DNA of 55,819 nucleotides, taken from the IMG/VR virus record IMGVR_UViG_3300017917_001130, positions 1-55,819 of that record; one strand, written 5' to 3'. Position numbers and translations under genes: made by a program. This DNA is from a virus. Positions 5,898-28,074 of the stretch are shown piece by piece (the stretch's first letter is position 1; the number at the start of each line of letters is the position of its first letter). Under the pieces are notes generated by a model that was given only the letters and a program-made list of their open reading frames with translations, ran no database searches and was not told the origin of the DNA.

Positions 5898-6428
5898 ATG
5901 ATATTTATTGATAACAAGTATACACGCTGGTATTATAATATTATTAATGCCGCTGTGTCAAGGTCTATTCCAACAGATTACACCGAAAAACATCACATCA
6001 TCCCCAAATCACTAGGCGGAAGCAATTCCAACATCAACTTAGTTAAACTAACGCCAAAGGAACATTTTATTTGTCATCGGTTACTAACCAAAATGGTATA
6101 TGAGAATTCTGCCAAAATTAAAATGCACAATGCAGCATTTCAAATGACTGTCAAAAGTTCAACCCAGCGACGTTATAAAATCAGTTCGAGGACGTATGAG
6201 ATTCTTAGAAGAAATAAGTCTGCGGCAATGCTAGGTAATTCATACGGTAAACGCCCAATGTCCGAGGAGACAAAGAGAAAAATTTCCGAAGCTAAGAAAG
6301 GCGTATCGATAAACAAAGGAAAGACAATTTCCGAAGAGCAAAAGAAGAAACTATCTGTTGCACTCAAAGGAAGAATGCCGTGGAACAAGGGAAAAACTTA
6401 CACCCATAAAAGGTCCGTTGATTCGTAA
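5898..6428 (+). CDS. HNH homing endonuclease with NUMOD3-type repeats
   Basis: Residues 30-70 carry EKHHIIPKSLGG, then NINLVKLTPKEHFICH, the HNH fold of phage homing endonucleases. The C terminus has three NUMOD3-like DNA-binding repeats (SEETKRKISEAKKG, SEEQKKKLSVALKG, then PWNKGK). The start is the ATG at 5898, eight nt after AAGGAG, rather than the ATG at 5877. It is on the opposite strand to its neighbours, has its own late box and sits between the dsbA-like and 474-residue genes. This fits a free-standing mobile gene inserted between host-phage genes. Confidence 0.9.
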   Translation: MIFIDNKYTRWYYNIINAAVSRSIPTDYTEKHHIIPKSLGGSNSNINLVKLTPKEHFICHRLLTKMVYENSAKIKMHNAAFQMTVKSSTQRRYKISSRTYEILRRNKSAAMLGNSYGKRPMSEETKRKISEAKKGVSINKGKTISEEQKKKLSVALKGRMPWNKGKTYTHKRSVDS

Positions 6429-6467
6429 CTTGCAGTAGCGAATTGCTTGTTACAGGCTCAACGGAAA

Positions 6468-6509
6468 GCCCACACACCGTAAACGGTAACGGTCCTAAGG
6501 TGTGTTGGG
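6468..6509. terminator. Hairpin between convergent genes, with an I-CeuI-site-like loop
   Basis: ACACACC at 6472-6478 pairs with GGTGTGT at 6499-6505, extended by CCC/GGG after a one-base bulge. The region separates the convergent HNH and 474-residue genes, so a bidirectional terminator is plausible, although no T-run follows. Another small stem, GGCT/AGCC, lies at 6455-6470. The loop contains TAACGGTCCTAAGGT, identical to 15 nt of the 23S rRNA site cut by I-CeuI. Confidence 0.4.
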
Positions 6510-7934
6510 TCAGCCCTTGCGGGCATGTGCTCTTCGACGCTTGGCGCCAATTTGTGTCACTTGCTCAATAATGTGATTGCGTTGATCAAATGCAGCCTCG
6601 CTTACCAAACCATTGCGTGTGAATTGACGATCAACGTAATTCTTGATCTGTTGTACATCTTCTTTGGTTTCTACACGAGCCAGCATGCGATTGACTTCTT
6701 CAAGTGTTTCGGTCATAACGGATTCAGGCATTGGTGTTGCACCGATACGCTTTATATATTCGTTTGTAGACAGTGGCTTTTCGGTTGGTGCTGTCCATGT
6801 TTGGCCCAGGCTTGGAGCGGCTGGTGCCTTGGGTGCAGCAGGTGCCTTGGGCGCAGCTGGTGCAGTTGTATAACCACTGAAACCAGTTCGTGCAAAGTTT
6901 GGTGTTGCTGGTTTCGCAGCTGGTTTAGGCAGATTATATGTTATCTTGCTTGGCATACCAGGTGCTGGAGTCGAAGTCGCTGGAGTTGTAGCTGCTGGTG
7001 CAGGTTGAGCTGCCGCAGTTGCCTGTTTGTTTAATTCAGCGTAGGTATAACGTTGTCCGGTGGCTGGATTGATAGCTGTGGTAGGAACACGTTTGCTAAA
7101 CACTTTGGGAGCAGGTTCGGCCTTGGCCAATTGATCTTCAAGATCTTGAATCTCTGCTTTTTTCATGTCAATTTGTTTTTTAAGTTCAACAGGGTCTGAC
7201 TTTTGTTTGAATATGTTGGTTTGCAAACGATCAATTGCATTGCCGCCTACATTCTTTACACCAGTGTTAAACCCTTTTGCTGTGGCTCGTCCCAATCCAG
7301 TTGTAGCACCACCAACTGTGGCACCTACACCTTGGCCAACACCGCCAGCAACGTTAGCAACACCACGGCCTACAGATTGCAAACCTTTGCCAACAGCAGT
7401 TCCAGCATCACCAATATCAGTGCCAACTGCTTTCCCAGCGGCACCAACTTTTTGAACACCGGTCTTGACATCACCATAGGTATTGGCTGCAACATTGGCA
7501 GCTTTGTTTAGTCCTGATTTGGTAGCGTTGTATGTTGCGGCTACAGGATCAGCAATTGCTGTCTTACCAACTTGTTTGATGGCACCACCAACATCACGAG
7601 CAGCACCGCCAATTGCGGCACCAGTATCAGCTACGTTTTTAGTGAACTTCTGTGCGCCTTTGCCAATTTTCTTGGCACCGCGTTGGATGTCTTTCCAAGT
7701 CAACTCATCTAGTTGTTCTTCTTCTAAGTTCTTGGTACGAACATATTTTTCGTAATAAGACTCGTCATTGCCTGCGTCACTGAAGTCATCATCGTCAGGA
7801 AAATCAACGTCGTCGTCATCACCATGGTCGCCATGCAAATCATTGTAGTAATCTTCATCGCTATCATAGTTACGAGGATCAATCTCGTTTAGGTTTTTCT
7901 TTTTATTATCTTCAAATAGTTGGTCGATGATCAT
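6510..7934 (-). CDS. Low-complexity Ala/Gly/Pro-rich virion-cargo-like protein
   Basis: This 474-residue protein has a start peptide MIIDQLFE ending in LxE, the T4 capsid-targeting form. Residues 20-60 are very acidic (runs of D). Residues 75-235 are an amphipathic Gly/Ala/Val repeat region (KGLQSVGRGVANVAGG type) reminiscent of LEA or membrane-surface peptides. A short coiled coil (KKQIDMKKAEIQDLEDQL) and a Pro/Ala linker with APKAPAAPKAPAAP follow, then a helical C-terminal domain. No enzyme motif is seen. It follows the 238-residue gene by two nt and faces the HNH gene. An injected or scaffold-like internal protein is the best guess. Confidence 0.7.
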   Translation of the reverse strand: MIIDQLFEDNKKKNLNEIDPRNYDSDEDYYNDLHGDHGDDDDVDFPDDDDFSDAGNDESYYEKYVRTKNLEEEQLDELTWKDIQRGAKKIGKGAQKFTKNVADTGAAIGGAARDVGGAIKQVGKTAIADPVAATYNATKSGLNKAANVAANTYGDVKTGVQKVGAAGKAVGTDIGDAGTAVGKGLQSVGRGVANVAGGVGQGVGATVGGATTGLGRATAKGFNTGVKNVGGNAIDRLQTNIFKQKSDPVELKKQIDMKKAEIQDLEDQLAKAEPAPKVFSKRVPTTAINPATGQRYTYAELNKQATAAAQPAPAATTPATSTPAPGMPSKITYNLPKPAAKPATPNFARTGFSGYTTAPAAPKAPAAPKAPAAPSLGQTWTAPTEKPLSTNEYIKRIGATPMPESVMTETLEEVNRMLARVETKEDVQQIKNYVDRQFTRNGLVSEAAFDQRNHIIEQVTQIGAKRRRAHARKG

Positions 7935-7936
7935 AA

Positions 7937-8653
7937 TTACTTCTCTTCTATATAATCTTGATTCAGAGCCTGGCGTCGACGGTTCTGATAAATTTTTACA
8001 GCCATGTCTGCATGATCAACCTTGTTGAACTTGTTAGGCAAGCTGCGGCCATTGTGTCTTATTTCATACCCACGGTCATCATCACCCCAGCATTCCAAAC
8101 ATGTACCATCTTCCATGGTATATGTTTTAACTGGTGATTCACTGACAGGGGCAGCAGGTTGTGATACTTTTGCTGCCAATTGATCTTCAACACCATGAGC
8201 AACTTCAGTATCAGCAGCGTCGCTGGGTCCTGAAATTGGAGCAACATCTGAATCCCATGTGGCGTCATCTTCGTCTACGCCTTCTGTTTCAGGGTCATCG
8301 TCAATATTTAATTCAGCCTTGGCCTTACGTATTAGATGCTGATCAATTTTGTTTTTCTTTTCCAGCGTTTCAAGATAGTCTGCAAAGCGACCTTTGACTT
8401 TGCTCAACATATCTTCTTCAACTTCTTGCATGGCTTCAGCAAGAGCTGTTTCGCCAACCATGTAACCATCCATTGGGTGCTTTTGATAAGGCTTCTTGGC
8501 CAATGTTGGGCTGATGTCTTTGGGTTTGAACAAGGCCGGCAACTGAGGCACACGCTCTTGTTGCTTGGTCATACTACCCTTGGGACTGACTGGAACAGTC
8601 TTACCTTCAACTAGTGCCAGGCGCTCTAGTATACTTCTGATGTCGTCACTCAT
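7937..8653 (-). CDS. Phage hypothetical protein, acidic middle, compact C-terminal domain
   Basis: The protein has 238 residues. The N terminus is MSDDIRSILERLALVEGK, with IxE and LxE sequences of the prohead-protease type. A Pro/Lys-rich linker, a helical region (MQEVEEDMLSKVKGRFADYL) and a strongly acidic stretch follow. The C-terminal domain (about 170-238) has a YTMEDGTCLECWGDDD strand pair and a basic helix, KIYQNRRRQALNQ. Its ATG overlaps the Dps stop region (ATGA). No known function was recognised; a virion or cargo protein is likely from the context. Confidence 0.65.
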   Translation of the reverse strand: MSDDIRSILERLALVEGKTVPVSPKGSMTKQQERVPQLPALFKPKDISPTLAKKPYQKHPMDGYMVGETALAEAMQEVEEDMLSKVKGRFADYLETLEKKNKIDQHLIRKAKAELNIDDDPETEGVDEDDATWDSDVAPISGPSDAADTEVAHGVEDQLAAKVSQPAAPVSESPVKTYTMEDGTCLECWGDDDRGYEIRHNGRSLPNKFNKVDHADMAVKIYQNRRRQALNQDYIEEK

Positions 8654-9090
8654 GCTCGCTGCTCTTTCAGGTAACTTCTCAGCATCCAGCCATGTTTCTG
8701 ATGGGCATCGATGCGTTCAGCAATGAAGTTAGCAATACCTTGCTGGTTTTCTTCAGTTGCTACTTGGAAAGTTTTGTTGAGAAGATCAAGCATTTGACCA
8801 TTGTTGGCCAAGAGTTCTTCTAGCATGAGTCGGGCACGAGGAATCTTTGTTTGCCCTTGAATTTGTGTGAGCTCTTGAAAACGCTCAAAACTACCCGGGG
8901 CATAATCGCCCAAGGCACGGATGTATTCTGCTGTGGGATCTGTAGCACCATAAACATCATCATGAATACTGTCAAAGAAAGCGTGAAGCTGGCCAAAGTC
9001 TGGGCCTTCTACGTTCCAGTGGAACTGTTTGGCTTTAAGGGCAAAAGCCTCTTCAGTTGCCAGGAGAGTTTTTAAAGCGTCCGCTAACAT
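8650..9090 (-). CDS. dps: Dps-like ferritin
   Basis: The 146-residue four-helix protein has the Dps pattern: KAKQFHWNVEGPDFGQLHAFFD (His and Asp/Glu of the ferroxidase site at the dimer interface), then DDVYGATDPTAEYIRALG. Dps proteins bind DNA and store iron while consuming peroxide. The start is the internal ATG at 9090, preceded by AAGGAAT; the longer reading frame runs into the upstream gene. It overlaps the 70-residue gene by 38 nt. It could protect packaged or replicating DNA from oxidative damage (inference). Confidence 0.85.
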   Translation of the reverse strand: MLADALKTLLATEEAFALKAKQFHWNVEGPDFGQLHAFFDSIHDDVYGATDPTAEYIRALGDYAPGSFERFQELTQIQGQTKIPRARLMLEELLANNGQMLDLLNKTFQVATEENQQGIANFIAERIDAHQKHGWMLRSYLKEQRA

Positions 9091-9265
9091 TTTTATTCCT
9101 TTTATATTCTTTCGGAGTATTGGGTGTTGGATCCGTTGTGTATTTACCAGAAAGCAGGCTTCCGCCATTTCTTGAAACAGTACCCATGGCCATGGAAACT
9201 GGAGCTACCCCACCAGCACTTGTGCCGCCTGCTGAAGCGTTTTCCATGATTTCGTTAACCTTCAT
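9053..9265 (-). CDS. Small phage protein with capsid-targeting-like N terminus
   Basis: This 70-residue protein begins MKVNEIMENASAGG, so IME followed by N matches the [I/L]xE cleavage form. A Gly/Ser/Ala-rich middle and a basic end (NTPKEYKRNKNVSGRF) follow. GGAGAG precedes the ATG. The end overlaps the start of Dps by 38 nt and the start overlaps the 102-residue gene by 11 nt. Proteins with a PTPNTPKEYK ending are common in T4-like phages. Function unknown. Confidence 0.7.
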   Translation of the reverse strand: MKVNEIMENASAGGTSAGGVAPVSMAMGTVSRNGGSLLSGKYTTDPTPNTPKEYKRNKNVSGRFKNSPGN

Positions 9266-9563
9266 TGTGTCTCTCCGGTGTATATATTTGAATGAATCCG
9301 TCTTTGGATATTATTGCTGGGCCTGTATCTACTCGCAAGTTTCTAACTTTGAGACTGCCGTGTTCGCTGTCCACAAGTTCCACACGCAAAGGGTATTTGC
9401 CGGGTGGTGCTTGAATTTGAAACTGTTCTTCAAGATAAACATCACGCCAAATCCATGTGCGCTCAGTAAACAGCTCGTTACCGATATAGCAACGATATCT
9501 AGGTGGGTGATCTCCCCACTTCATATACACATCTGCCTTGACAATAACGAATTCAGGTTGCAT
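9255..9563 (-). CDS. Small beta-rich hypothetical protein
   Basis: The protein has 102 residues from the ATG at 9563. It is beta-rich and aromatic (VYMKWGDHPPRYRCYIGNEL, then ERTWIWRDVYLEEQFQIQ) and ends in GFIQIYTPERHNEG. It looks like a small jelly-roll or carbohydrate-binding-like virion protein, but no family was recognised. The longer frame upstream is rejected because a CTAAATA box lies four nt before this ATG and no ribosome binding site is seen, suggesting a leaderless message. Confidence 0.6.
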   Translation of the reverse strand: MQPEFVIVKADVYMKWGDHPPRYRCYIGNELFTERTWIWRDVYLEEQFQIQAPPGKYPLRVELVDSEHGSLKVRNLRVDTGPAIISKDGFIQIYTPERHNEG

Positions 9564-9567
9564 ATTG

Positions 9568-9574
9568 TATTTAG
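9568..9574 (-). promoter_or_regulatory. Late-type box, minus strand, four nt before the start at 9563
   Basis: CTAAATA on the minus strand, divergent from the plus-strand TATAAATA 13 bp away. Transcription would begin at about the start codon. Confidence 0.5.
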
Positions 9575-9587
9575 CAAAATGTACGCC

Positions 9588-9595
9588 TATAAATA
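9588..9595 (+). promoter_or_regulatory. T4-type late promoter TATAAATA for the plus-strand glycan operon
   Basis: An exact TATAAATA with five nt (TCTGC) before the radical SAM ATG at 9601. By T4 geometry (box at about -13 to -6) the start site falls on the A of ATG. Confidence 0.6.
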
Positions 9596-9600
9596 TCTGC

Positions 9601-10647
9601 ATGCTTAAACTTTCAGAAATACGCCGTGTGCATGTGGAATTGACCACACGGTGCAATGCACGTTGTCCTATGTGTATGCGCAACTATCGAGGGCTTGATT
9701 ACAATTCAGGATACCCTTTGTGCGAGCTGTCAGTTGAAGATTTCAAGAAGATTCTGCCACTTGATGTGTTGGCCAGTATCATGCAGCCTGATCCACCCAT
9801 CAACGGCAGGATTCCAATACGCTATGCATTTCAAGGGGTGCAGTTCAACGGGAACCTAGGAGACTTTGCCAGCGCTCGAGATGCTGTGGAATGCGTGGAG
9901 TATTTGGTACAAAATGGTGTGCATGTAAAGATCAACACCAATGGTAGTTTGCGTACTCCTGACTGGTGGGCTAGACTGGCCTTGCCCAATGTTGAAGTGG
10001 GCTTTGCCTTAGATGGTTTAGCCGACACGCATCACCTGTACCGCCAAGACACAGACTGGCACAAAATAATTCGCAATGCACAAGCTCTAATAGATGCTGG
10101 TGGGCGAGCCATATGGCGCTTTGTGCCTTTTGATCATAACCGCCACCAAGAACAACAATGTAGAGATTTGGCCACCAGCATGGGATTTGCAGGATTTGAA
10201 AACATCTATGATGGTCGTAGCTCTACGCCAGTGTTTACTCGCACCGGAGAGTTCAGTCATCAAATTGGCACAGACCCTAGACCAGCACACATTATTCCCG
10301 ATGTCAACGGCTTGTTACAAAGTCACATCACATGGTACGACGCAAAAAAGATTACCTTGGAAAAGGATCGTGCTGAACTAGACTTAAATTGCATACACAA
10401 ACGCAATCGAGAAATATACATAGCCGCAGATGGATCAGTGTATCCTTGTTGTTACTTGGGATTCTATCCAGAACAGATGCATCATGCTGGCAACACTGAA
10501 GTTGCTCCATTGATAAAAGAAAACAATGCACTACAGTATCCCTTGGAACAGTGCTTGTCTTGGTTTGATAGTGTAGAACAAACTTGGGACAAACCCAGTA
10601 TTGCAGAAGGTAGACTTTACATCTGCGTTAACAGTTGTGGAAAATAA
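9601..10647 (+). CDS. Radical SAM protein with C-terminal SPASM/twitch-like cluster region
   Basis: This 348-residue protein has RCNARCPMC (CxxxCxxC at residues 18, 22 and 25), which binds the 4Fe-4S cluster that cleaves SAM. The C-terminal part has DGSVYPCCYLGFYP and later Cys residues (QCLSWF, YICVNSC), like an auxiliary-cluster SPASM or twitch domain. Such enzymes modify peptides, sugars or cofactors; the substrate is unknown. It is the first gene of a four-gene plus-strand operon with a methyltransferase and glycosyltransferase-like genes, so sugar or surface chemistry is likely. No ribosome binding site precedes the ATG at 9601. Confidence 0.85.
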   Translation: MLKLSEIRRVHVELTTRCNARCPMCMRNYRGLDYNSGYPLCELSVEDFKKILPLDVLASIMQPDPPINGRIPIRYAFQGVQFNGNLGDFASARDAVECVEYLVQNGVHVKINTNGSLRTPDWWARLALPNVEVGFALDGLADTHHLYRQDTDWHKIIRNAQALIDAGGRAIWRFVPFDHNRHQEQQCRDLATSMGFAGFENIYDGRSSTPVFTRTGEFSHQIGTDPRPAHIIPDVNGLLQSHITWYDAKKITLEKDRAELDLNCIHKRNREIYIAADGSVYPCCYLGFYPEQMHHAGNTEVAPLIKENNALQYPLEQCLSWFDSVEQTWDKPSIAEGRLYICVNSCGK

Positions 10648-11228
10648 TGTATAAGCAATTTACAGCACCGCCTGTGGAGAATCGAGGCAGCAGTAGTATT
10701 CAAGGCACAGAGTATTTGAGAAGTCAACTGCCTGAACTATTTAAAAAACACAATATCAAAAGCATGTTTGATGCTGGCGCCAATGACTGTGCCTGGCAAT
10801 ATCCTACTATGCATGATATGGTTGAGTACAGTGCCGGAGATCACAATGTTGCCATGGTACGGTTAGCACAACAACAGTTTCCTGATTTAAATATCATACA
10901 ACACAATGTTGTTGTAGATCCGTTCCCATCTGTTGACGTGATATTTTTACGTGATGTGGCCATACATCTAAACAATCACAACAAAAAATTAATGTTAAAA
11001 AACTGGTTGCAGAGCAATGTGCCTTGGATACTGATGACACATATAGATAACATAAGTGAAAACAAAGACTTTGAACACAGTCCTTTGCAGTTTCCATTTG
11101 CTGAAATAAACTGGCATTTACCACCGTGGAATTTTCCCAAACCAACAGAGTCAGTTGTGGATTTATGGCCAGGTTCTTTTAGATTAATGTGCCTATGGCA
11201 CCGAAACCAAATTAAGGAGTTAGTATGA
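10647..11228 (+). CDS. Class I SAM-dependent methyltransferase
   Basis: This 193-residue protein has MFDAGANDCAWQ as SAM-binding motif I (DxGANxG-like) and VDVIFLRDVAIHL as the motif IV region. The start at 10647 overlaps the stop of the radical SAM gene (TAATG), so the two are translationally coupled. The likely target is a sugar or other small molecule made by the operon, from context only. Confidence 0.75.
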   Translation: MYKQFTAPPVENRGSSSIQGTEYLRSQLPELFKKHNIKSMFDAGANDCAWQYPTMHDMVEYSAGDHNVAMVRLAQQQFPDLNIIQHNVVVDPFPSVDVIFLRDVAIHLNNHNKKLMLKNWLQSNVPWILMTHIDNISENKDFEHSPLQFPFAEINWHLPPWNFPKPTESVVDLWPGSFRLMCLWHRNQIKELV

Positions 11229-12106: not shown

Positions 12107-13236
12107 GATTTCGACATCCAATCTTTGATCCTTGTCAATCAGTTATCAGTGTTGCTCAGAATTGGGGCGAGCCTAACTTATTTGAGCCCACTACAAATTT
12201 AACCAGAGTACTAAAACAACCATTTAAGGTTGCTGCTGTGCATGTGTTTTTCAACGATCCCGCAACCTGGCCAGGAAGTAGGCTCGTGACAGAAAATCCT
12301 GATATTGTCAAAGTTGATTTATCACAGTTTGATCTTGTGTTATTGATGGAGGCTGAAAATAATAATTGGGAAGATATACAGAATTGGATAAAGCAACAGA
12401 ACATTAAAAACTACATTTTTGCATACGGCACCTTGGCAGACCCTGTGCAAAAAACCATGCCCAATATGTTTTACAGTAGTTGGTGGTTGAAATACTTTTT
12501 GAACAATCGTAAATTTGTTGACACCACAGAAGATTACACTCACTATACTCACAAGCCATTTCGATTCAATGCATTGTTAGGGGCTCGCAAACCGCATCGT
12601 GACTACATTATGCTGGCCATGGCGAAGTCAAAGTTGTTGTATGAAAACATTGTTACCTATCGAGACGTATTCCCTGGAGAGGTTATTGATCCGCAAACAA
12701 AAGAGTTTAAAAACTTTTTTCCCGACGTCGAGTTACAACATCCTTATGTGAGTCCACATCTACGACCTGAATGGGAAGTAGCGCCAGTGATAGACAATCG
12801 TGTGAGTTTTATTGATCCTGTGGCAATACATCGCAATACTTGGTATTCAATAGTGGCAGAATCAAACTGTGCAGGCACTAAGTTTTTCTTTACAGAAAAA
12901 ACCATGAAACAACTATGGGCCAAACGTGTGTTTGTTATGTTTGCAAATACAGGATTTTTAGGGCACCTGCGTGATTTAGGCTTTGAAACATTTGGCAGTG
13001 TGATAGATGAAAGCTATGACACTGATCCAATCTACAATCGAGATTGGAAACGATTTGAGAAAGCCTTTGAGCAAGTGATGTTCTTGAATCAACAGGACCC
13101 AGTCAAGGTGTATCAAAAACTCAAACCAGTGTTAGATCACAATCACAATCACATGCACACCTTGTTGCGCCGTCAAGAACAGCAGGCCAAAGAAATGTTG
13201 ATGGCCAACACTCCCACTTACTATTGGTTACGCTAA
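12103..13236 (+). CDS. Glycosyltransferase-like protein of unknown family
   Basis: The protein has 377 residues. The C-terminal region reads FFFTEKTMKQLWAKRVFVMF, then GFLGHLRDLGFETFGSVIDE and SYDTDPIYNRDWKRFE. This pattern is typical of GT10/GT-B-like phage proteins (TEKT-x-KPL, LRxLGFxTF, IDESYD). The N-terminal half has alternating strands and helices (DLVLLMEAENNNWED). It overlaps the previous gene (ATGA) and is the last gene of the plus-strand operon, overlapping the convergent SGNH gene by nine nt. Assignment is by motif only. Confidence 0.55.
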   Translation: MRFRHPIFDPCQSVISVAQNWGEPNLFEPTTNLTRVLKQPFKVAAVHVFFNDPATWPGSRLVTENPDIVKVDLSQFDLVLLMEAENNNWEDIQNWIKQQNIKNYIFAYGTLADPVQKTMPNMFYSSWWLKYFLNNRKFVDTTEDYTHYTHKPFRFNALLGARKPHRDYIMLAMAKSKLLYENIVTYRDVFPGEVIDPQTKEFKNFFPDVELQHPYVSPHLRPEWEVAPVIDNRVSFIDPVAIHRNTWYSIVAESNCAGTKFFFTEKTMKQLWAKRVFVMFANTGFLGHLRDLGFETFGSVIDESYDTDPIYNRDWKRFEKAFEQVMFLNQQDPVKVYQKLKPVLDHNHNHMHTLLRRQEQQAKEMLMANTPTYYWLR

Positions 13237-15602: not shown

Positions 15603-16003
15603 CTCACAGGCCCTCCTTCAACCCAAGCATCACAGGTACGTTTGGCCGCACATTTGAATTTTAAAAATTTGCAATAACCTAAGTGTCCAGCATCAATAGT
15701 GCTCATGGGATCCGATCCTGGCTCTGAACCAATACCGCGAGCAATACAGTCCAACATGTCTTCTGAAATGTCAAAGGCAGCACAGTTACCACACCGATTT
15801 TGTTTTACTGACTCAATGTCGTCTGTATTCCATTTGTCAGCCAATTCGGCCCAGTATTCTTCGTTAGGTTCATTGGGGTTGAGTGGTCCGTAGTGATACT
15901 CATCAATGGCTTTCTGACGATTCTTCAAGTTAAGCTCAATGCTTTGTGTAGCAGGAGGGCAACCTTGCTCAACCGCTTCTACTAGATTAATAAAGTTTCT
16001 CAT
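15599..16003 (-). CDS. Cys-rich probable metal-binding phage protein
   Basis: This 134-residue protein starts at the ATG at 16003 (MRNFINLVEAVEQG; LVE then A fits the [I/L]xE form). Seven Cys lie in the mature part: CGNCAAF, DCIARG, GYCKFLKFKC and RTCDAW. This spacing suggests a zinc or iron-sulfur site. The start overlaps the Nudix stop (ATGA). No family was firmly recognised, although proteins ending KCxxxRTCDAWxxGGP are common in phages. Confidence 0.65.
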   Translation of the reverse strand: MRNFINLVEAVEQGCPPATQSIELNLKNRQKAIDEYHYGPLNPNEPNEEYWAELADKWNTDDIESVKQNRCGNCAAFDISEDMLDCIARGIGSEPGSDPMSTIDAGHLGYCKFLKFKCAAKRTCDAWVEGGPVR

Positions 16004-16563
16004 TTCTTCTTGCCGCCCTTCATGTTGGCACACCAGTGATACATTTTGCCGCGTTCGCCGCCATACTTCCGAGCCTTGGCACGTAGAGATGTAACACTTC
16101 CATCACAGCTAGCGCCAGCACGTTTCACACGTCCGGGGCGACTCTTGCCCTTGACCTTGCCATCTGCAAAGTTTTCATTTACAGGAATGTTCTTCAATGC
16201 AGCCGCAACACCGGGGTGCATAGGACTGGGCCAGTCTCCAGCTTCTACCCAGCAAAAGTCTTTCCATTCAGGATCTGGACGTGGTTCAAACTCGTGCGGC
16301 ACAATACCAATAAATGTGACATACCGGGGATTCTCTGCCAAACGTTTTAGTTTGATAGGACCTGTGTATCCTGACTCTTCACCAAGTTCACGTCTAGCAC
16401 ATTGTTCTAATGATTCGCCGGGCTCTCTGCCGCCGCCCCATGCTGCCCATAAACCGCCGTCGTTGATACTATCACTGCGTTGTTGTAGGCCATAACGACC
16501 TGTGTCTTCAGCATACAAGATAATGCCAGCAGCACCTTGATCAGCAAATTCATGTGCTCTCAT
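16000..16563 (-). CDS. Nudix hydrolase with basic Cys-containing tail
   Basis: This 187-residue protein has a complete Nudix box at about residues 44-66: GGREPGESLEQCARRELGEE then SGY. It therefore hydrolyses a nucleoside diphosphate-X compound; the substrate is unknown. After about residue 135 comes a basic tail (KGKSRPGRVKRAG, GKMYHWCANMKGGKKK) not needed for Nudix activity and seen on unrelated phage proteins. The N terminus MRAHEFADQG resembles the tagged genes but lacks the Glu. It overlaps its neighbours by TGATG and ATGA. Confidence 0.88.
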   Translation of the reverse strand: MRAHEFADQGAAGIILYAEDTGRYGLQQRSDSINDGGLWAAWGGGREPGESLEQCARRELGEESGYTGPIKLKRLAENPRYVTFIGIVPHEFEPRPDPEWKDFCWVEAGDWPSPMHPGVAAALKNIPVNENFADGKVKGKSRPGRVKRAGASCDGSVTSLRAKARKYGGERGKMYHWCANMKGGKKK

Positions 16564-19500
16564 CAGGCTGCTCCCATCACTGGTACGACGCTAACTTCGT
16601 CACGCACCATGTTGCGTTGGGCCCACTGTGCGGCTACTCTGTTGGCATCTGCTTGGCTGTTGCCCACGCCTGAGAAGCGATATAGTTCTTGGCCGTTAGC
16701 ATCAATAACCTTCCACTCTCCAGTGAAACTGCCCTGTGCTGGCTGTTCGCCTGCCACGTCAACAATACCACCTCTCGCTGCATCGGCAGCACGAGCACGA
16801 GCTAAGTCTGCTTCCATATCAGGGAACAGATCAATATTGGCTACTGGTTCCCGTTCAGCATTAGACACTCCAGGTCCACGACGAATGCCAAACATTCTTT
16901 GTGCTTGTTCGGGATTTAATCTATGCGGACCGTGAGCACGATAATCATTCAACCGAATCATGGCTTCGTCGTCGTTGCGTAGTTGTGCAGTGTCTAAAAC
17001 TTCGCCGGTTTCTCTATTGTAGATTTCGTAATCGATATTTTGTGATGCCTGTGCTGCTCGTTGACGTTGTAGATCCATGGTACTACCAGGCACTGGAGCC
17101 CGTTGAGCACGGTATTCGCCGCCAGGATGGTCAGCACGATATCGTTCTAATCTCGCCATGGCCGCTTGGTCATCGGCAGCAACAAATGCCGCCACTATGT
17201 CATCGCGATCCAGGCCTCTATAAATTTCATAATTGCGGCCTGCCGCTTGTTGACCCGTAGCCTGTGCAGGTTCGTCGCGACCTGCCACTGTTGTGCCTTG
17301 TTGTGCGGCTCCGGGTTGGCCGAGACTTTGGTCAGGATCGTATCTAGTAGACCATTCTATTCCTGGATTGGCATCTTCCCACTGACGCAACACTGTTATA
17401 GCATCTGACATATCAGCGGCTGCATAACGATACGCAGGTTTATTGTCGTTGTTGGAATCTACGACCACGTAGTTGCCATCAGGATTGCTGGGGCGACCGT
17501 TTAGTGTTGGTCCAGCTGATTTATCATGATAGGGACGCAGGGGCTTGGCCACCACTGTGTTTCTTGTGTTGGCCCAGCTAGGGTATCCATCAGGGCCCAA
17601 GGCCTTTTCAATGGCTTCTTCTCGGCTGCTGGCAACAACTTCTATACTGGCGTAACTTTGAGGTGGATTAGAAACACTCCACCAGTATTTTTCCGTCTTA
17701 GGCAGCTCTTTCTTCAACTGGCGTTCTAGCTGTGCTTGTTTGACAAAACTGCGTAGAGCTGCCTTGGGTGTTTTGCCAGCAACATAGTCAGCAAAATATT
17801 TTATAGTATCCTTTGCACCTTTGCCAGCAATGCCGCGGGCTTCGTCAGCCACAGGTTCCAGTAACTTGTAGAGCTTCTTCAAGTATTCTTCACGATAGGC
17901 TTCGGGATTCATAGCTGCTGATAGCGCAACAGTGAATCGCATTAGAGTGTTTTCGATCTTGTCAAAGTTCTCATCCAACCAGTCGCCACCGGGGCTACGG
18001 AATTCAATGTAACCAGACTTGGTATTGATTGAAGTGTATTTGCTTGTGGTGCCTGAGTGTACGACTTTGCTGGCCAGATCTTCCATGTGCCCACGCATCT
18101 TGTCCAATAACTGTTTGGCAGAGTCGGGATTCTTCTTAACCAAGTCCTGAACTTTACCCAAGGCTGATGCAGCATAGGTATTTGAACTGCGACCATACTG
18201 ATCCAGCACATACTTGTCACCCAGCAACAATGCCAGTTTTACATAATCAAGTTTTTGTAGATCAAAGTCAGGCACTGAGATGTTGATGTGCAGGCCTGTG
18301 GAGTCATTAGTATAACAACCTGTGCGTCCGGCCCACTCTTTGACCTTGTTCAAGTCACTGAGCATTTCGTCAATGGGCATGGGCGGTGACACAAACTCCA
18401 AGCCCATGTCGTTGTCACTGTCAGGATCTAAACTGCCATCGGGTTCTACAACATAGTGTCCAGGTTCTCTACGGGCACCGTGATAGCTAGAACTTGCGTT
18501 GACAGGTTTGCCAATCATGCGACTGAAATCATCAGCAACTTGATCAATATCGCCTTCGCCACTGCTGGTGCTGGTGTAGTAAGGCCAAGTTATGTCTCCA
18601 CTGTAGTTTGATTCAACATCTGATGCATAGCGAATACCTCGGTCTTCTAACCAATCCTGTTCTGAGTAGTTGTCTGAACGGTCTTCTGAGTATTCTTCTC
18701 TGGCAGCATCAAAGTTGCCGCCTTGCTCATCCCACTGATCTTGAACATATGATTCACGTTTTTCATCTACCAATGCAAACAGCATCTTTTCAAATTCTTC
18801 TACGTCCAGTTTGTCGCCGTATTCGGCTTGCAGTTGATTGCGAGCTTCTTCTTCGGCTTCTTCTTCGTCAAATGGATCTTCGCGATCCAAATAGTCTTTG
18901 AAATATTCAAAGCCATCGCCGCTGTTCCACCAGTCGTTGTCTATACTTTCTCCGCGCCACTCCCAAAACTCTTCATACATTGCGTCTCTGAGTCTGCGGA
19001 TCATGCCTGAACTGTTGTATTCGTTGTCGTCAAAGAAGTTCACACAGTCATCAATGTCACGCACACGCTCGTCTTGATCGTAGTCAGCTTCTAGATCGCC
19101 GCCTTCATCATCCTTGATGTTGGGCACAATCATTTCAAATTCCATGCCGGCCATGGCACCTGTTTTAGCAGCTTCTGCTCGGAGGTTGCTGGGTGACATT
19201 TTGATTTCCATCAGTGCATCATCCAGAGCCTCACTGATCAATTCATCATCATCTTCTTCGCCAGGTTCATCCAAGTCATGTGTTTTCAAGCCCAGGTTCA
19301 TGAGCTTTTTACTGTACATGTTTTCTAAGTCTTCGCTACCAAAAGCAAACACAGTACTGGGAGGTCCTTTGCCTAGAGATTTTTTATCAATGCTGTCAAG
19401 ATCCGAAATCTTTTGGCCCAACTTGTACCAATCGTACATGTCACTTACGTCAACTTTGATTGTGCCTGCTGGCATTTCGGGTGGTGATTCAGGGCCCAAA

Positions 19501-20900
19501 GGTTTATTAAGGTCTTGGTACTTGCCCTGACCCTGTGACGGTTGCGGCATACGGCTTTCACGTAGATTTGCTGACTTCATCAACAACCCTGGCTCGCCAT
19601 TGCGACCAGTGTTCAGTGCTAGTTTGTTTGCTTCCTTGCCAACCTGGCCAGGCTTTATGTCCACACTCACAGCCATTGAGTAACGTGGATCTTTAGCTTC
19701 TTTTTTGTTTTTAGGAATGTAGCCACTGGCATTTTCATGCATGGGCGTTTTGCCAAATAGTTCTGGATGTGCATCAGCATAGTTACGCATGATGATGCCA
19801 GCTACAGCATGAGCTTCGTTTTCAAATCTCGAACCAGTTTCGCCCGCAGCAGGTGTCAAGGATTCAATTTCGTGTTGACGGCAGTGGCACAGTTCATGTG
19901 CCGCAGTACGCAAAATATCCAACAAGTGTCTATTGTGCAAGTTCACATGCAACACATGTGACTCGGGCTCGTACATACCAAAACTGTGATTGTCAATACT
20001 CCAATCAGGATCATCATGCAACTGAATCTCTGGCATGTTTTCAATGTCTAAACGATTGGCAGTGTCGTGAATAAAGTCCTGCACCAAGTCAGCATACTGG
20101 TGTTCGGTTTCTAAAATTTGTTTGGTACTGGGATTGACACCGTCGGGACTTTCTGTGACAAAACCATACACCACTGGCTTACGTGCTTCAGGCAAACTCA
20201 AAGACTTGTTCTTTAGTTCTTGTCTAGCTGTTTTGAGTTTTTGTATAGTACCGTTGTTTCGTAATATCTTGAATGCTAGGTTCTCTGGTGAGAACTCACC
20301 CTGCTGTTCAAGACCTTGTTGGCGCATGTTTTTTAACTTGGCCCAGGCGTCATCCATTTGATGTTCGTCGCCAGACTCAATGGCAGATTCGATTCTATGA
20401 CCAATGTCTTCGTACTTGCTTTTTACAGAAATATCTTTGACGTCAGCTCGGCGGCGCTTGGGCACACTGAGCCATTTGTTTTGTAACAAACTGTAGATGC
20501 CCTGGGAGTAGTGCGGTTGATTGGGATTTTGTACATACAACTCTACGTCATATCCGCCAATGCGAATGTCGTTTTGATCGTTGTATTGATATTTTTTAGC
20601 GTCAAACAATTCGCGAAATACTTCGCTTGTGTCAGCTTCGGGAAGATCTGCAACAATGTGCAGGTCTATGTCTGAATGCGGGGTGTAATTAAAGGCAGCG
20701 TTGCTACCACTGATGGTAATATCGCGCACTTGCAAATCGTCAATGCCCAAAAACTCCTTGAAGTCTTCAGCGATTTCCAGCAGTTTAGCATGTACATCGG
20801 GACGTAGATGTTCACGGTCGTCCCATAACCGGGGATTAAGCCGGTCATGGAACTTTACAGCGTCTGCTAAATTAAAAGCGTCCAGTTCATTGATATTCAT
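16563..20900 (-). CDS. Giant nucleotidyltransferase/metallopeptidase/amidoligase fusion
   Basis: The protein has 1,445 residues. Residues 55-125 are a MNT-type nucleotidyltransferase (GSNAAFNY, HSDIDLHIV, third acidic site GGYDVEL). Residues 310-370 hold HELCH in the HExxH context TAAHELCHCRQHEI, a zincin. Residues 440-560 are a conserved phage linker (VDVSDMYDWYKLG). Residues 580-1010 match amidoligase (COOH-NH2 ligase) motifs: GMEFEM, GLEFVSPP, STGLHINIS and GYIEFRSPGGDW. From 1070 to the end, about five 45-50-residue repeats carry YEIY or YVVV strands and a helix. An acidic insert lies at 595-790. A GTAAATA box sits eight nt before the ATG, with no ribosome binding site. It may be packaged and injected (inference). 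Confidence 0.8.
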   Translation of the reverse strand: MNINELDAFNLADAVKFHDRLNPRLWDDREHLRPDVHAKLLEIAEDFKEFLGIDDLQVRDITISGSNAAFNYTPHSDIDLHIVADLPEADTSEVFRELFDAKKYQYNDQNDIRIGGYDVELYVQNPNQPHYSQGIYSLLQNKWLSVPKRRRADVKDISVKSKYEDIGHRIESAIESGDEHQMDDAWAKLKNMRQQGLEQQGEFSPENLAFKILRNNGTIQKLKTARQELKNKSLSLPEARKPVVYGFVTESPDGVNPSTKQILETEHQYADLVQDFIHDTANRLDIENMPEIQLHDDPDWSIDNHSFGMYEPESHVLHVNLHNRHLLDILRTAAHELCHCRQHEIESLTPAAGETGSRFENEAHAVAGIIMRNYADAHPELFGKTPMHENASGYIPKNKKEAKDPRYSMAVSVDIKPGQVGKEANKLALNTGRNGEPGLLMKSANLRESRMPQPSQGQGKYQDLNKPLGPESPPEMPAGTIKVDVSDMYDWYKLGQKISDLDSIDKKSLGKGPPSTVFAFGSEDLENMYSKKLMNLGLKTHDLDEPGEEDDDELISEALDDALMEIKMSPSNLRAEAAKTGAMAGMEFEMIVPNIKDDEGGDLEADYDQDERVRDIDDCVNFFDDNEYNSSGMIRRLRDAMYEEFWEWRGESIDNDWWNSGDGFEYFKDYLDREDPFDEEEAEEEARNQLQAEYGDKLDVEEFEKMLFALVDEKRESYVQDQWDEQGGNFDAAREEYSEDRSDNYSEQDWLEDRGIRYASDVESNYSGDITWPYYTSTSSGEGDIDQVADDFSRMIGKPVNASSSYHGARREPGHYVVEPDGSLDPDSDNDMGLEFVSPPMPIDEMLSDLNKVKEWAGRTGCYTNDSTGLHINISVPDFDLQKLDYVKLALLLGDKYVLDQYGRSSNTYAASALGKVQDLVKKNPDSAKQLLDKMRGHMEDLASKVVHSGTTSKYTSINTKSGYIEFRSPGGDWLDENFDKIENTLMRFTVALSAAMNPEAYREEYLKKLYKLLEPVADEARGIAGKGAKDTIKYFADYVAGKTPKAALRSFVKQAQLERQLKKELPKTEKYWWSVSNPPQSYASIEVVASSREEAIEKALGPDGYPSWANTRNTVVAKPLRPYHDKSAGPTLNGRPSNPDGNYVVVDSNNDNKPAYRYAAADMSDAITVLRQWEDANPGIEWSTRYDPDQSLGQPGAAQQGTTVAGRDEPAQATGQQAAGRNYEIYRGLDRDDIVAAFVAADDQAAMARLERYRADHPGGEYRAQRAPVPGSTMDLQRQRAAQASQNIDYEIYNRETGEVLDTAQLRNDDEAMIRLNDYRAHGPHRLNPEQAQRMFGIRRGPGVSNAEREPVANIDLFPDMEADLARARAADAARGGIVDVAGEQPAQGSFTGEWKVIDANGQELYRFSGVGNSQADANRVAAQWAQRNMVRDEVSVVPVMGAA

Positions 20901-20918: not shown

Positions 20919-21845
20919 TTAGGCTTGTGCAGTGTCCTGATCGCTAGAAACCAGCACTTCTGGCTCGGCAGCAGGTGCCAACACATCATCAGCAACTTCG
21001 TGTCCGCCTTGTGGGTTTAACACTGTTTCAGCACTGGGTTTTGCAGCCGCTTCGTTGGCTTCAGCAATGGCTTTGAGGTCAAAGTACAGTTTGTCTTGGC
21101 TGGCAGCATCAAACACATAAGTGCCCACGTGACGCAACAACACACGTTTATCCACAAACACTTGGCCACCTAGATCACGCCAGTTTTCACAGAATGTCCA
21201 GTCTTCACTGTAGTAGCGGTTTTCACGCACAGCAGTGTCAAAGTAGGTTTTCATGTAAGGGTTTAATTCAACAGGCAAACCAATGTCGTTGTTGAAAGGC
21301 TTTGTGGCAGGGTGTGCGTCTAGCTTTTCAAACACTTCGCGCTTGATCAACAAGAAGCCTGTGCCAGTTTTTGTGACTTCAATAAGGTTTGGATTTTCGG
21401 GTGTGCCGTTTTCCATGCCTGGAATGCCATTCACACACCACTTAATGGGCATGGATTTCATGGGATACAAGCCGCCGATGACGTCTTTTTGTGCATCCAG
21501 CAATACCAGCAAGTGCCAAGGTTCCCAACCAATGTCAGCATCCACAAAGAACAAATGAGTTGATTCTTTGGTGTGCAAAAACTTGGCTGTGAGTGTGTTT
21601 CTAGCACGGCTAATCAAACTTTCATTTGTCATGGTCTCCACAGTCCAATCCAACCCAAGTTGGCGTGCTGTGTTGGCCCATTTAATATAACTCATGAACG
21701 TTTGTTCTGTGAGCATACCACCATAACATGGCATACAAATATGCACACGAGTAGTTCGCAAATAGTCAAGATTGACTTGAATATTTTGCTGATTGGTGTT
21801 TGCCGGATCAGTTGGGGGCGTTGTTGTAGGTTGGGCGTCAGCCAT
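20919..21845 (-). CDS. GT-A glycosyltransferase
   Basis: The protein has 308 residues from the ATG at 21845, chosen because GGAGAA lies four nt before it. The longer frame adds MHTFKYSYIF. A Pro/Thr/Asn-rich start is followed by RVHICMPCYGG and NESLISRARNTLTAKFL. HLFFVDADIGWEPWHL contains the DxD metal site (DAD). DVIGGLYPMK and YSEDWTFCENWRDLG (the ED catalytic region) follow. These are typical of phage glycosyltransferases that act on DNA bases or surface sugars. The C terminus is an acidic, Pro/Ala-rich tail. Confidence 0.8.
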   Translation of the reverse strand: MADAQPTTTPPTDPANTNQQNIQVNLDYLRTTRVHICMPCYGGMLTEQTFMSYIKWANTARQLGLDWTVETMTNESLISRARNTLTAKFLHTKESTHLFFVDADIGWEPWHLLVLLDAQKDVIGGLYPMKSMPIKWCVNGIPGMENGTPENPNLIEVTKTGTGFLLIKREVFEKLDAHPATKPFNNDIGLPVELNPYMKTYFDTAVRENRYYSEDWTFCENWRDLGGQVFVDKRVLLRHVGTYVFDAASQDKLYFDLKAIAEANEAAAKPSAETVLNPQGGHEVADDVLAPAAEPEVLVSSDQDTAQA

Positions 21846-21896
21846 TGAGTTCTCCATAAAAATGTACGAGTATTTAAATGTGTGCAACAGGCACGG

Positions 21897-25169: not shown

Positions 25170-25811
25170 TTATTTAGCTTGTACAGGCAGCGTTTTGCGA
25201 ATTAAACCCGGGACCACAAGGCTCAGCATGGTAATGTCTTTGGGATCGTTGTGCTCTACAAAATGGTGCCGTTGCATCCAATGCCAACGATTTTTCTTCA
25301 AATGTGCTCTTAACGTATATGTAATTTTAAATGTGTCTTTTCGCAGGTCAATAAAATTCAGCAGCCTATCCCGATCTTCTGGCTCTATATAACGCTCTTT
25401 AAAATAGCTTCTGTACCGGAATTTGGGCGCATTGATCACTATCACGTCCCTGGGGCGATCTACCACGGCCTGCACTGCATTGTTAAATGCTATGTAGGGC
25501 AGATCAGCAAGTTGTTGTAGTATCCCAACGTCATTGCTGTAGATATACATGATGTTGAAACTGATCACCAGTTTGATCCGATCTCGCACACAATCAATTT
25601 CGTCAAACGCTGCCAGTATGTTTGTTAATACATCGCCGGCTATTTGTTCTTTCCAGGTGTAGCGGCTGCTGTTGCGATAAGCAATTGACTTTACCAGTTC
25701 TGTTTTTGTTTTTGCACGTAGCACTCCTGCTTCGGGCAAGCTAATACAGATACCGTACTCAAATTGATCATAGAACAAACGGTCTCGGCTACTGGGTTCA
25801 AATTTAAGCAT
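25170..25811 (-). CDS. Hypothetical protein downstream of ClpA
   Basis: This protein of about 213 residues uses the ATG at 25811, which overlaps the ClpA stop; an ATG at 25817 is also possible. It reads as alpha/beta with a basic C-terminal third (RWHWMQRHHFVEHNDPKD, then a hydrophobic strand) and ends in PVQAK. KLVISFNIMYIYSNDVGILQ and a DVIVINAPKFRYRSY strand lie in the middle. No family was recognised. Its stop TAA lies within the CTAAATA box of the next gene. Confidence 0.6.
   Translation of the reverse strand: MLKFEPSSRDRLFYDQFEYGICISLPEAGVLRAKTKTELVKSIAYRNSSRYTWKEQIAGDVLTNILAAFDEIDCVRDRIKLVISFNIMYIYSNDVGILQQLADLPYIAFNNAVQAVVDRPRDVIVINAPKFRYRSYFKERYIEPEDRDRLLNFIDLRKDTFKITYTLRAHLKKNRWHWMQRHHFVEHNDPKDITMLSLVVPGLIRKTLPVQAK
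25171..25177 (-). promoter_or_regulatory. Late-type box, seven nt before the 54-residue gene
   Basis: CTAAATA shares its TAA with the stop codon of the upstream gene. No ribosome binding site lies between box and ATG. Confidence 0.45.
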
Positions 25812-28074
25812 TGACATCACCAATTTGAATCATACCGTTGCCGTCAACAGGATTGTATTTGCGACTGGCAACAAACACAACTCGGTCATCAACCAAGTCG
25901 GCAGTGATGTCAGCATCACGCAACTGCTCAAACAAGATCTTCTTACTCAGTGGCACACGAATCAACTCGTCAATCTTGCGGCTTAGTGGTCGCGCACCCA
26001 TCTTTGAATCGTAGCCTTTGTCGGCCAGCATGTCGATCACTGCTTCACTCAAACTGAGCTGAATGCCTTTTGTGCTCAAACTTGTTTTGAGTTCATCTAC
26101 AAACTTTACCACAACTTTCTTCACAGCCAGTGTGTCCAGCTTGGAGAATTTAACAATTTGGTCAATACGATTTCGCAATTCAGGTTTGAAGAACTCTTTG
26201 AGTGCTCGGTCGTCCTCGCCTGTTTTCTCAAAGTTGCCAAAGCCAATGTTGTTTGTTTCACTGTCGCGAGCTCCCAAGTTAGAAGTCATGATAATGATAC
26301 AGTTCTTGCAGTTGGCTTTTTTGCCATTGCTCGAAGTAATAACACCTTCGTCCAGCATTTGCAACAGGATGTTTGTAACGTCGGGGTGCGCCTTCTCTAT
26401 CTCATCAAACAATATTACTGAGAAGGGATTCTTGCTGAGATCGGAGATTAGTTTGCCACCGCCCACGTTGCCATCTTCAAAGCCCACATAGCCTGGAGGG
26501 GCACCAATGAGTCCTGATACTGAGTGACGTTCTTGATACTCACTCATGTCATACTTCAGCAGTTTCATATCAAGATTGTCTGCCAACAGTCTAGCCAGTT
26601 CTGTTTTACCTGTGCCAGTTGGGCCTAGGAACAAGAAACTCGCCATGGGCTTTTTGTCGTTGGCAATGCCAGCAAAGTTGATGTACACACGCTCAAGCAC
26701 AGAGTCTACTGCGGCGTCTTGACCGTAGAGCTTTTGCTTGACGTTGCCTTCTAGCTCGACAATTTTTGCCGAACGTTCGTTTTGCAGTTTGTCCACAGGC
26801 ACACTGGCCACACGACTGAGTTGTTCTTCAATCATGGCTTTTGTGATAGTTACGTTGCCTTGATCTTTCACACGCTCACGAGCACAGGCCGCATCAATCA
26901 AGTCAATAGATTTGTCTGGGTTCTTGCGATCGTGTATGTAACGATTGGCCAGTTCCACTGCGGCAGTCATTGCTTCGGTATCAATCAGTACATTGTGGAA
27001 CTGTTCCAGCCTTGGACTCAATCCAATAAGGATCTGTTCTGTGGTTGCAGCATCGGGTTCGTCAATGGCCAAGCGATAGAATCTACGCATCAAAGCACGA
27101 TCCTTTTCAAAGCTCTCGTAGTATTCTTCCCAAGTTGTTGAAGCAATGACTTTCAAACTGCCTTTGGTAATAGCAGGCTTCAACATGTTGGCAAAGTCTA
27201 AACTTGAGTTGCTACCAGACCCTGCACCACGCATGGTGTGTGCTTCGTCCACAAACAAAATACAGTTCTTCTTGGCTTCCAGTGCAGAAATCACGGCTTT
27301 GAATTTTTCTTCAAACTCGCCGCGATACTTTGATCCTGCCAACAGTGAGCCAACTTCTAGACTCCATACTTCGTGCCCTTTCAAGAACTCGGGCACACGG
27401 CCTGCTTGAATTTCCTGGGCCAGGCCTTCAATGATGGCAGTTTTACCTACACCAGGATCACCTACCATGAGCACGTTGGCTTTGAAGCGTCGAGCCAACA
27501 CAGTGATCATTTCCTCAAGTTCTGTGGCACGACCAATCAAGGGCTCTAGTTGATTCTTTTTGGCACGACCACTGAGGTCAACACAGTATTCGTTAAGGAT
27601 ATCATCAGCTTGGCTCTGTGTCATGCCTGCAGACTCTGTGCTGGGTTGATAGTTCTTCTGCCAGAACTCCACAAACTCTGCTTTCTTCACCCCATACTTC
27701 AGCAAGAAGTAATGTGCATGACTGTTGGTTTCGCTCATGATAGTGAGATACAGGTCAATAATGCTCATGTTGCGGCGACCAGTAAACATCACCTGCACAT
27801 TGGCACGATTGAACATGCGTTCTAACTGAGCTGTTTTTCTAGGTTGGAGATCAGTTTTGTTGCTGACCAAATTGGCCAAGGTACTCAAGTAGTGCGATAC
27901 TTCTTGTTCCATGGCGTCTACTTCTGTACCAAATCGATCCAAGCACTTGCGAAACGGTGGATGCTGTAGCATGGCCAGCAATACATGTTCGGTTATCACG
28001 TACTCATGACTGCGTTCACGGGCCAGTTGTACTGCTTGTTCAATAATGATTTCGATTTCTTGATGATGTGCCAT
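25804..28074 (-). CDS. clpA: ClpA-like AAA+ unfoldase
   Basis: At 756 residues it has the size of E. coli ClpA (758). The N-domain is about 1-145. The first AAA+ module has GDPGVGKTAIIEG and CILFVDEAHTM. The second has GPTGTGKTELARLL and VILFDEIEKAH. Between Walker B and the sensor arginine (PELRNRIDQI) lies NNIGFGNF, in the position of the ClpP-docking loop (IGL in ClpA, IGF in ClpX). There is no ClpB-type coiled-coil middle domain. It should therefore feed substrates to host ClpP; no clpP is in the window. AAGGAA precedes the ATG, behind a sigma70-type promoter. Confidence 0.93.
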   Translation of the reverse strand: MAHHQEIEIIIEQAVQLARERSHEYVITEHVLLAMLQHPPFRKCLDRFGTEVDAMEQEVSHYLSTLANLVSNKTDLQPRKTAQLERMFNRANVQVMFTGRRNMSIIDLYLTIMSETNSHAHYFLLKYGVKKAEFVEFWQKNYQPSTESAGMTQSQADDILNEYCVDLSGRAKKNQLEPLIGRATELEEMITVLARRFKANVLMVGDPGVGKTAIIEGLAQEIQAGRVPEFLKGHEVWSLEVGSLLAGSKYRGEFEEKFKAVISALEAKKNCILFVDEAHTMRGAGSGSNSSLDFANMLKPAITKGSLKVIASTTWEEYYESFEKDRALMRRFYRLAIDEPDAATTEQILIGLSPRLEQFHNVLIDTEAMTAAVELANRYIHDRKNPDKSIDLIDAACARERVKDQGNVTITKAMIEEQLSRVASVPVDKLQNERSAKIVELEGNVKQKLYGQDAAVDSVLERVYINFAGIANDKKPMASFLFLGPTGTGKTELARLLADNLDMKLLKYDMSEYQERHSVSGLIGAPPGYVGFEDGNVGGGKLISDLSKNPFSVILFDEIEKAHPDVTNILLQMLDEGVITSSNGKKANCKNCIIIMTSNLGARDSETNNIGFGNFEKTGEDDRALKEFFKPELRNRIDQIVKFSKLDTLAVKKVVVKFVDELKTSLSTKGIQLSLSEAVIDMLADKGYDSKMGARPLSRKIDELIRVPLSKKILFEQLRDADITADLVDDRVVFVASRKYNPVDGNGMIQIGDVNA

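Follow-up and report, generated by a model that had tools for sequence, protein, structure and literature searches.

In polyvalent proteins, known from phages and conjugative elements, one long polypeptide carries several unrelated enzyme domains, and T4 internal head proteins lose a propeptide to gp21 and are sent into the host; a putative polyprotein encoded in the 55.8-kb fragment IMGVR_UViG_3300017917_001130 of IMG/VR (55,819 nucleotides, hereafter the window) is a variation on these two known themes. Its open reading frame (ORF; 1,445 aa, 16563..20900; all window features given with a coordinate range lie on the minus strand) joins a nucleotidyltransferase (NT), a zincin (ZN) and an amidoligase (AL), and thus holds at least two unrelated enzymatic domains in one mobile-element polypeptide, as polyvalent proteins do (Iyer et al. 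2017, PMC5512222). Further likeness to that class lies in the zincin hub, the Pol-beta nucleotidyltransferase, the GNAT and ParB-like modules of the family and the putative delivery with DNA. However, the survey reports Pol-beta nucleotidyltransferases only in polyvalent proteins of conjugative elements and nowhere mentions an amidoligase (PMC5512222), whereas here a T4-like phage is the carrier, with sites of the prohead-protease type at the junctions. In T4, the internal proteins IPI-III and Alt have leaders ending in L/I-x-E, are packaged in the prohead core, cleaved by gp21, which cuts after L/I-X-E, and ejected; 10-residue capsid-targeting leaders suffice for packaging and are removed by gp21, and Alt, an injected modifying enzyme, is processed at its C-terminus too (PMC9026906). 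The window protein would follow the same route, with its sites placed between a series of joined enzymes, whereas the T4 proteins carry propeptides at their ends. We favor, with a probability of about 0.68, a head-packaged polyprotein from which the prohead protease would release separate enzymes for injection together with the DNA.

Other parallels are more partial. Phages phiKZ and SPN3US eject many head proteins, and their diverged prohead protease cuts after glutamate, with 14 sites identified in nine SPN3US proteins (PMC5694885, PMC10052503), but they belong to another phage lineage and the proteins are different ones. DdrB of phage P1, from the darA operon, is large, processed, head-packaged and equipped with a metallopeptidase domain, but no nucleotidyltransferase or amidoligase is described for it (PMC5512222). 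In a limited literature search, we found no published description of an NT-ZN-AL fusion.

ORF translation and domain searches give the order NT, ZN, TAG, MID, AL and C-terminal small domains. The original prediction, that a nucleotidyltransferase, an HExxH peptidase and an amidoligase share one gene, was borne out by hidden Markov models (HMMs), conserved active sites and AlphaFold models: the motifs GMEFEM (585–590), GLEFVSPP, STGLHINIS and GYIEFRSPGGDW are all in frame, D77/D79 (S-D-I-D) and E336 (HELCH) are present as it had named them, and domain-by-domain HMM searches and structure prediction recovered the expected fold with conserved catalytic residues in all three domains. Since folds and catalytic residues hold throughout, there is no case for two or more domains lacking active-site geometry, the outcome it had named as speaking against the fusion. 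It had missed the TAG and MID modules, the C-terminal repeats and the predicted cleavage sites.

NT (residues 1–238, 20187..20900) is a Pol-beta nucleotidyltransferase of the AadA/MNT-like type, with residues 10–236 matching phrog_36119 in PHROGs (E=2e-45) and G65, S66, D77, D79 and E120 invariant or nearly so in the NT alignment, which supplies the GS...DxD motif and third acid of ANT/MNT-like Pol-beta enzymes. AlphaFold2 models most of residues 20–230 with a predicted local distance difference test score (pLDDT) >90, Foldseek matches the domain to CdnE, AadA, ANT and MNT nucleotidyltransferases, and VIA gives Z 7.3 to 2rff and ~6.4 to AadA, where a Z <8 is weak on its own. The Pfam NTP_transf_2 score of 18.9 bits lies under the 21-bit gathering cut-off, so NT is not filed under that family, while having the fold and belonging to phrog_36119. 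Its target is most likely a host protein, RNA or small molecule, which would be nucleotidylated.

In ZN (residues 265–389, 19734..20108), residues 257–374 match the metallo-protease family phrog_87 with an E-value of only 0.0019 (PHROGs), and H335, E336, H339 and E360 are invariant or nearly so in the ZN alignment. The HExxH motif (HELCH, H335-E336-xx-H339), a downstream glutamate, E360, that is likely the third zinc ligand, and the fold, modeled with pLDDT >90 for most of 270–380 (AlphaFold2), identify it as a zincin of the sort that serves as a polyvalent hub. Foldseek returned the minigluzincins abylysin (prob 1.0) and jannalysin, and the small zincins abylysin, selecase, Wss1, IrrE and ArdC are its fold neighbors across Foldseek and VIA, the latter with Z 9.0 to 1oz9, 8.7 to Wss1 and 6.3 to ArdC (the last again below 8 and weak on its own). 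Its role would be proteolysis.

AL (residues 566–1040, 17781..19205) is a carboxylate-amine ligase of the glutamine-synthetase fold by both family HMM and fold: residues 786–973 match Pfam Amidoligase_2 (PF12224; 7.6e-7, 29.7 bits, above the 22-bit cut-off), and glutamine synthetases or their close homologs fill all of the top 50 VIA rows listed (Z 10.4–11.2). PafA and other specific amidoligase relatives are not among these listed matches, which does not exclude them. In the AL alignments, E587, E589, E819, E835, H871 and R968 are invariant or nearly so and R988 is also conserved, and the core is well ordered in an AlphaFold2 model of residues 557–1445. AL therefore resembles the Amidoligase_2 COOH-NH2 ligases in Pfam match, fold and conserved acids and arginine, but differs in sitting within a polyprotein and in having a large helical stretch inserted after its first conserved motif and ahead of the second. 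Glutamate is the residue activated by glutamine-synthetase-fold ligases such as PafA. AL would form amide bonds, probably at a glutamate.

The modules between and behind the enzymes are smaller. TAG (residues 390–448, 19557..19733; ASGYIPKNKKEAKDPRYSMAVSVDIKPG...) is short, basic and conserved across the fusions, and also forms the C-terminal tail of phage cytidylyltransferases; tblastn in cultured phage records gave no match for it, and PHROGs held no convincing family. MID (residues 449–557, 19230..19556; MPAGTIKVDVSDMYDWYKLG...) is conserved in one relative (L062) and mobile in others, its sequence recurring within inserts and tails of L240, L273, L308 and L337. The C-terminal small alpha/beta domains (residues 1041–1445, 16566..17780) appear in the model of residues 557–1445 as ordered units at ~1066–1126, 1286–1345 and 1387–1445 with disordered linkers in between. 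The AlphaFold2 model of residues 1–470, from a 56-row alignment, has a mean pLDDT of 80.4, with ordered cores at ~20–235 and 267–382 and values <50 at 242–264, 384–393 and 440–470.

We gathered relatives from IMG/VR, where at least 472 were found for NT, at least 557 for ZN and at least 396 for AL, kept 80 of each, and assigned domain order with HMMs of our own, run on the ORFs in the loci that were fetched. Precisely the order NT-ZN-TAG-AL is shared by 76 distinct ORFs of 976–2,560 aa, the window's included and the shortest cut by its locus end, so the three-enzyme fusion is beyond chance and no sequencing artefact. The fetched loci also hold 22 NT-ZN-TAG proteins, 33 AL alone and 24 ZN alone. 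L046–L049 have separate genes for NT+TAG, AL and ZN, all three within 9 kb; the genes for AL and ZN lie close together in L050–L059, and NT adjoins AL in L006. One contig (L057) carries three amidoligase paralogs within 8 kb (2211-4385, 5982-7940 and 7962-10025, plus strand). Between the four core modules of the 76 fusions lie 0 to ~500 residues, and the inserts and tails of relatives hold dCMP deaminase, GNAT, ParB_N, M48 peptidase, GDSL-like and unknown modules. Both the separate-gene arrangement of some relatives and this variable spacing speak for the precursor reading.

The boundaries between these modules are marked by glutamates in a gp21-like context, described below with an arrow at each predicted cut. 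Counts are to be read against background residue frequencies of 0.195 for LIVM and 0.078 for E, and as the relatives are not independent observations they are not probabilities. At the end of NT, the first junction, J1 (LPE238↓A, 20187..20195), follows the pattern L-S-[LIVM]-x-E, with LIVM at P3 in 76/76 fusions, E in 69/76 and a P2 entropy of 3.2 bits. Ahead of TAG, J2 (MHE389↓NASGYIP, 19734..19742) has E in all 76 fusions, L/I/V/M at P3 in 66 of them and a P2 entropy of 3.3 bits. J3 (LRE448↓S, 19557..19565) reads LRE, LQE, LLE or LFE at this position in many relatives. Ahead of AL, J4 consists of tandem predicted sites, ISE557↓A and LME565↓I (19206..19238), with L/I at P3 and E each in 75/75 and a P2 entropy of 2.05 bits among the 76 fusions. 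A further candidate, ILE264↓T (20109..20117), precedes the zincin. Sites 264, 389, 448 and 557 fall in segments with pLDDT <50 (242–264 for the first, 384–393 for J2 and 440–470 for J3).

A blind scan for conserved alignment residues with a hydrophobic residue at -2 and a variable one at -1, whose thresholds J2 fell outside, returned nine columns, of which three are E: 238, 565 and E5 of the conserved N-terminal I-x-E (MNINE↓L, 20886..20888). All three lie at module boundaries and none is intradomain. Together with the J1, J2 and J4 statistics, this places L/I-x-E sites at functional boundaries, as in gp21 substrates. The same rule follows a mobile module: an unknown 'FDQPYP..WE' unit recurs at differing places in relatives, always right after a triplet ending in E (NVNE↓A, PVTE↓A, TVDE↓A, PITE↓A). 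The window linker ISE557↓ALDDALME565↓IKM looks like the tandem leader end of stand-alone amidoligases (FLNE↓TQVLDE↓IDM).

Cuts at these sites might instead be made from within, by a polyvalent protein whose zincin, rather than the prohead protease, processes its own chain or another host or phage substrate. Every full fusion has a zincin, always after NT, and in polyvalent proteins the metallopeptidase is the hub domain and has been proposed as the processor (Iyer et al. 2017, PMC5512222). Yet the same E sites occur in proteins that have no zincin, namely stand-alone AL, TAG-bearing cytidylyltransferases and gp23, which makes this main rival the less likely one, and the motif fits the gp21 consensus; we regard it as unlikely.

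The prohead-protease reading also draws on what the relatives encode. Relatives encode gp21, gp22 and gp23; an S77 prohead protease and gp23 occur in the contigs of the longest relatives, with LxE sites in the gp23 N-terminus, and the S77 protease is found in the contigs of L042, L043 and L060, all of them fusion carriers. Nearly all of the 33 stand-alone amidoligases open with a short leader whose end carries one or two [LIVM]xE motifs (MRALEFLNE↓TQVLDE↓IDM type), and some zincins likewise start with leaders resembling T4 capsid-targeting ones (MRALEFLNE↓ type). The amidoligase homolog of the cultured Agrobacterium phage Atu_ph07 (AUZ94978.1) has the N-terminus MRWQDISSKKLTE↓LKM, with the candidate cut after E13, the nucleotidyltransferase of Caulobacter phage Cr30 begins MRKFSQLLE↓D, and that of Synechococcus phage S-B68 ends in ..DLSLR, at the place of J1 in the fusions. 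The cyanophage cytidylyltransferase T4-GC190, whose relatives carry the TAG module, was detected in the S-SM1 virion (PMC3037559), and its orthologs begin MKKFSAFLKE↓A, MKKFSAFLTE↓A or MKNFHQFITE↓A. Across all ORFs, the enrichment of such N-terminal leaders is real and modest (4 vs 0.7, 12 vs 2.9, 11 vs 3.6).

Of the two roles put forward in the original prediction, the injected effector is favored by the leaders on stand-alone relatives, the cut sites and the published virion detection of a sister enzyme, with injection itself the presumed step; the modifier of capsid proteins was considered and gained no support. That the protein is structural, or that its enzymes work on the capsid while the head is being assembled, and not in the host, is very unlikely: the head-targeting-like leaders on relatives would suit this as well, and some neighbors may be structural (a weak phrog_2175 Ig-domain match, E 0.027), but no capsid-type fold was found, the active sites are intact, and the export signals of relatives imply that the place of action is a cell and not a capsid.

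These export signals were located by pattern search in the fetched loci. All 12 distinct Tat-type signals have an [LIVM]xE whose E stands three or four residues before RR, and 7/7 Sec-like signals lie directly behind such an E; of the lipobox-type modules, 16/16 have a site within 5 residues of the hydrophobic stretch, one of them (L183) only via a weaker VKE. A looser Tat pattern had also matched RREAAKTG at an amidoligase start, a false hit, and the stricter pattern was used instead. A signal peptide needs a free N-terminus to function, so a cut of the chain at these sites would account for where the signals lie. Two small proteins on plus strands, in L153 (~9860-10710) and L307 (~12340-12913), have leader, site, Tat signal and protein in that order, the former reading MRAIEFLTE↓AVAQNQQGVAE↓GSLEE↓VDRRGFLKG... 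and carrying an M48 peptidase domain. The window's own protein has no export signal of this kind, and the placement supports the cleavage rule for the family and makes no claim on the window protein.

They bear as well on a further rival, in which the chain would stay uncut in the infected cell as a late or middle product, with domains that cooperate, for example on a modified peptide or sugar, and linker motifs that are incidental. This fits the conserved domain order and co-occurrence and the window's neighbors, which include cytidylyltransferase, Nudix and PIG-L-type deacetylase genes. It sits poorly with the highly variable insert lengths, the disordered linkers, the export signals behind E sites and the separate-gene relatives with head-targeting-like leaders, and we consider it improbable, ranking it after self-processing by the zincin. 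The evidence points to a precursor cut into separate enzymes rather than to the single three-function protein originally proposed.

Several observations weigh against cleavage by a prohead protease. Ordered domains contain L/I-x-E as well (e.g., LLE42 and IAE45), so the motif alone is weak; E238 and E565 lie at domain edges, not deep in disorder; and E565, which is no less invariant than the active-site residues, could serve structure or catalysis instead. J1 lacks E in 7/76 relatives, and P3 of J2 allows V, M, Q and A, broader than in T4; we infer that the prohead protease of these phages has a broader P3 tolerance (V, M). The fusion N-terminus, MNINE↓LDAF, is a 5-residue stub without a long T4-type leader, and no gp21 was seen within the window, itself a fragment. 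Genome-wide enrichment of [VIM]AE[GASN] tetrapeptides, 13 in the window vs 3.4 expected, was tried as a marker and dropped because it is absent in two long relatives (G004 and G005).

The gene neighborhood is conserved. Directly upstream lies a gene of unknown function matching phrog_1574 (20919..21887; 1.7e-34), which is upstream of the fusion in 73/76 loci. The conserved upstream block further includes a cytidylyltransferase (69/76 loci) and, in 55–65 loci, the genes at 24206, 24637 and 25170 and one for a ClpB-like AAA+ protease/chaperone (25804-28074; phrog_4871, 1.6e-240; 55/76). Downstream is a Nudix hydrolase gene (16000..16563), with a homolog in 28/76 loci. Its product ends in a lysine-rich basic module (VNE↓NFADGKVKGKSRPGRVKRAG...KMYHWCANMKGGKKK, NFADGK...KMYHWCANMKGGKKK) common to unrelated proteins and polyprotein tails; the L240 polyprotein has this module at its end as well, and L180 and L138 contain it.

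Elsewhere in the window, a modular basic protein (36491-37906) has several [VM]AE↓A sites, short modules (DACY.KV.SRYKVWPSAYASG...) seen again in many PHROGs and with matches in 491 phage records, mostly of cyanophages, and a C-terminal DUF6321; it is possibly another head-internal precursor. A protein at 44805-45929, with no Pfam match, begins MKINQILE↓S and has internal GVAE sites in the style of polyprotein linkers. The window also encodes a Dps/ferritin-like protein (8650-9168; PF00210, 1.2e-23), a TctC-family periplasmic solute-binding protein with a signal-like N-terminus (41399-42373; PF03401, 2.2e-18) and a class I glutamine amidotransferase/peptidase C26-like protein (42370-42924).

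Under the prohead-protease model, three and sometimes more independent enzymes would be translated as one chain in a T4-like large aquatic phage, and the chain would enter the prohead core as one. A gp21-type prohead protease would then sever its linkers, mostly disordered ones, at (L/I)-x-E sites, and the freed NT, zincin, small basic TAG peptide and amidoligase would be ejected into the host alongside the DNA, where the enzymes would modify host molecules early in infection. More tentatively, the family may represent a modular cassette for head cargo, in which effectors are placed between prohead-protease sites and the cut that matures the capsid frees each of them, some with N-terminal Tat or lipoprotein signals that would direct them to the host envelope. 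More speculative still, as each cut would leave a Glu-ended peptide, the amidoligase might attach the small basic peptides to host proteins.

If this is true, some of the largest T4-like phages deliver several enzymes for early host take-over within a single precursor, which the capsid protease matures. Polyproteins of animal viruses follow such a logic, which, as far as the literature searched shows, is undescribed for phage enzymes. Some of the injected enzymes would, once cut free, be exported to the envelope of the host. A leader or linker that terminates in [LIVM]-x-E would then serve as a sequence rule to predict from genomes alone which of the many 'hypothetical' proteins of large aquatic phages are packaged and injected.

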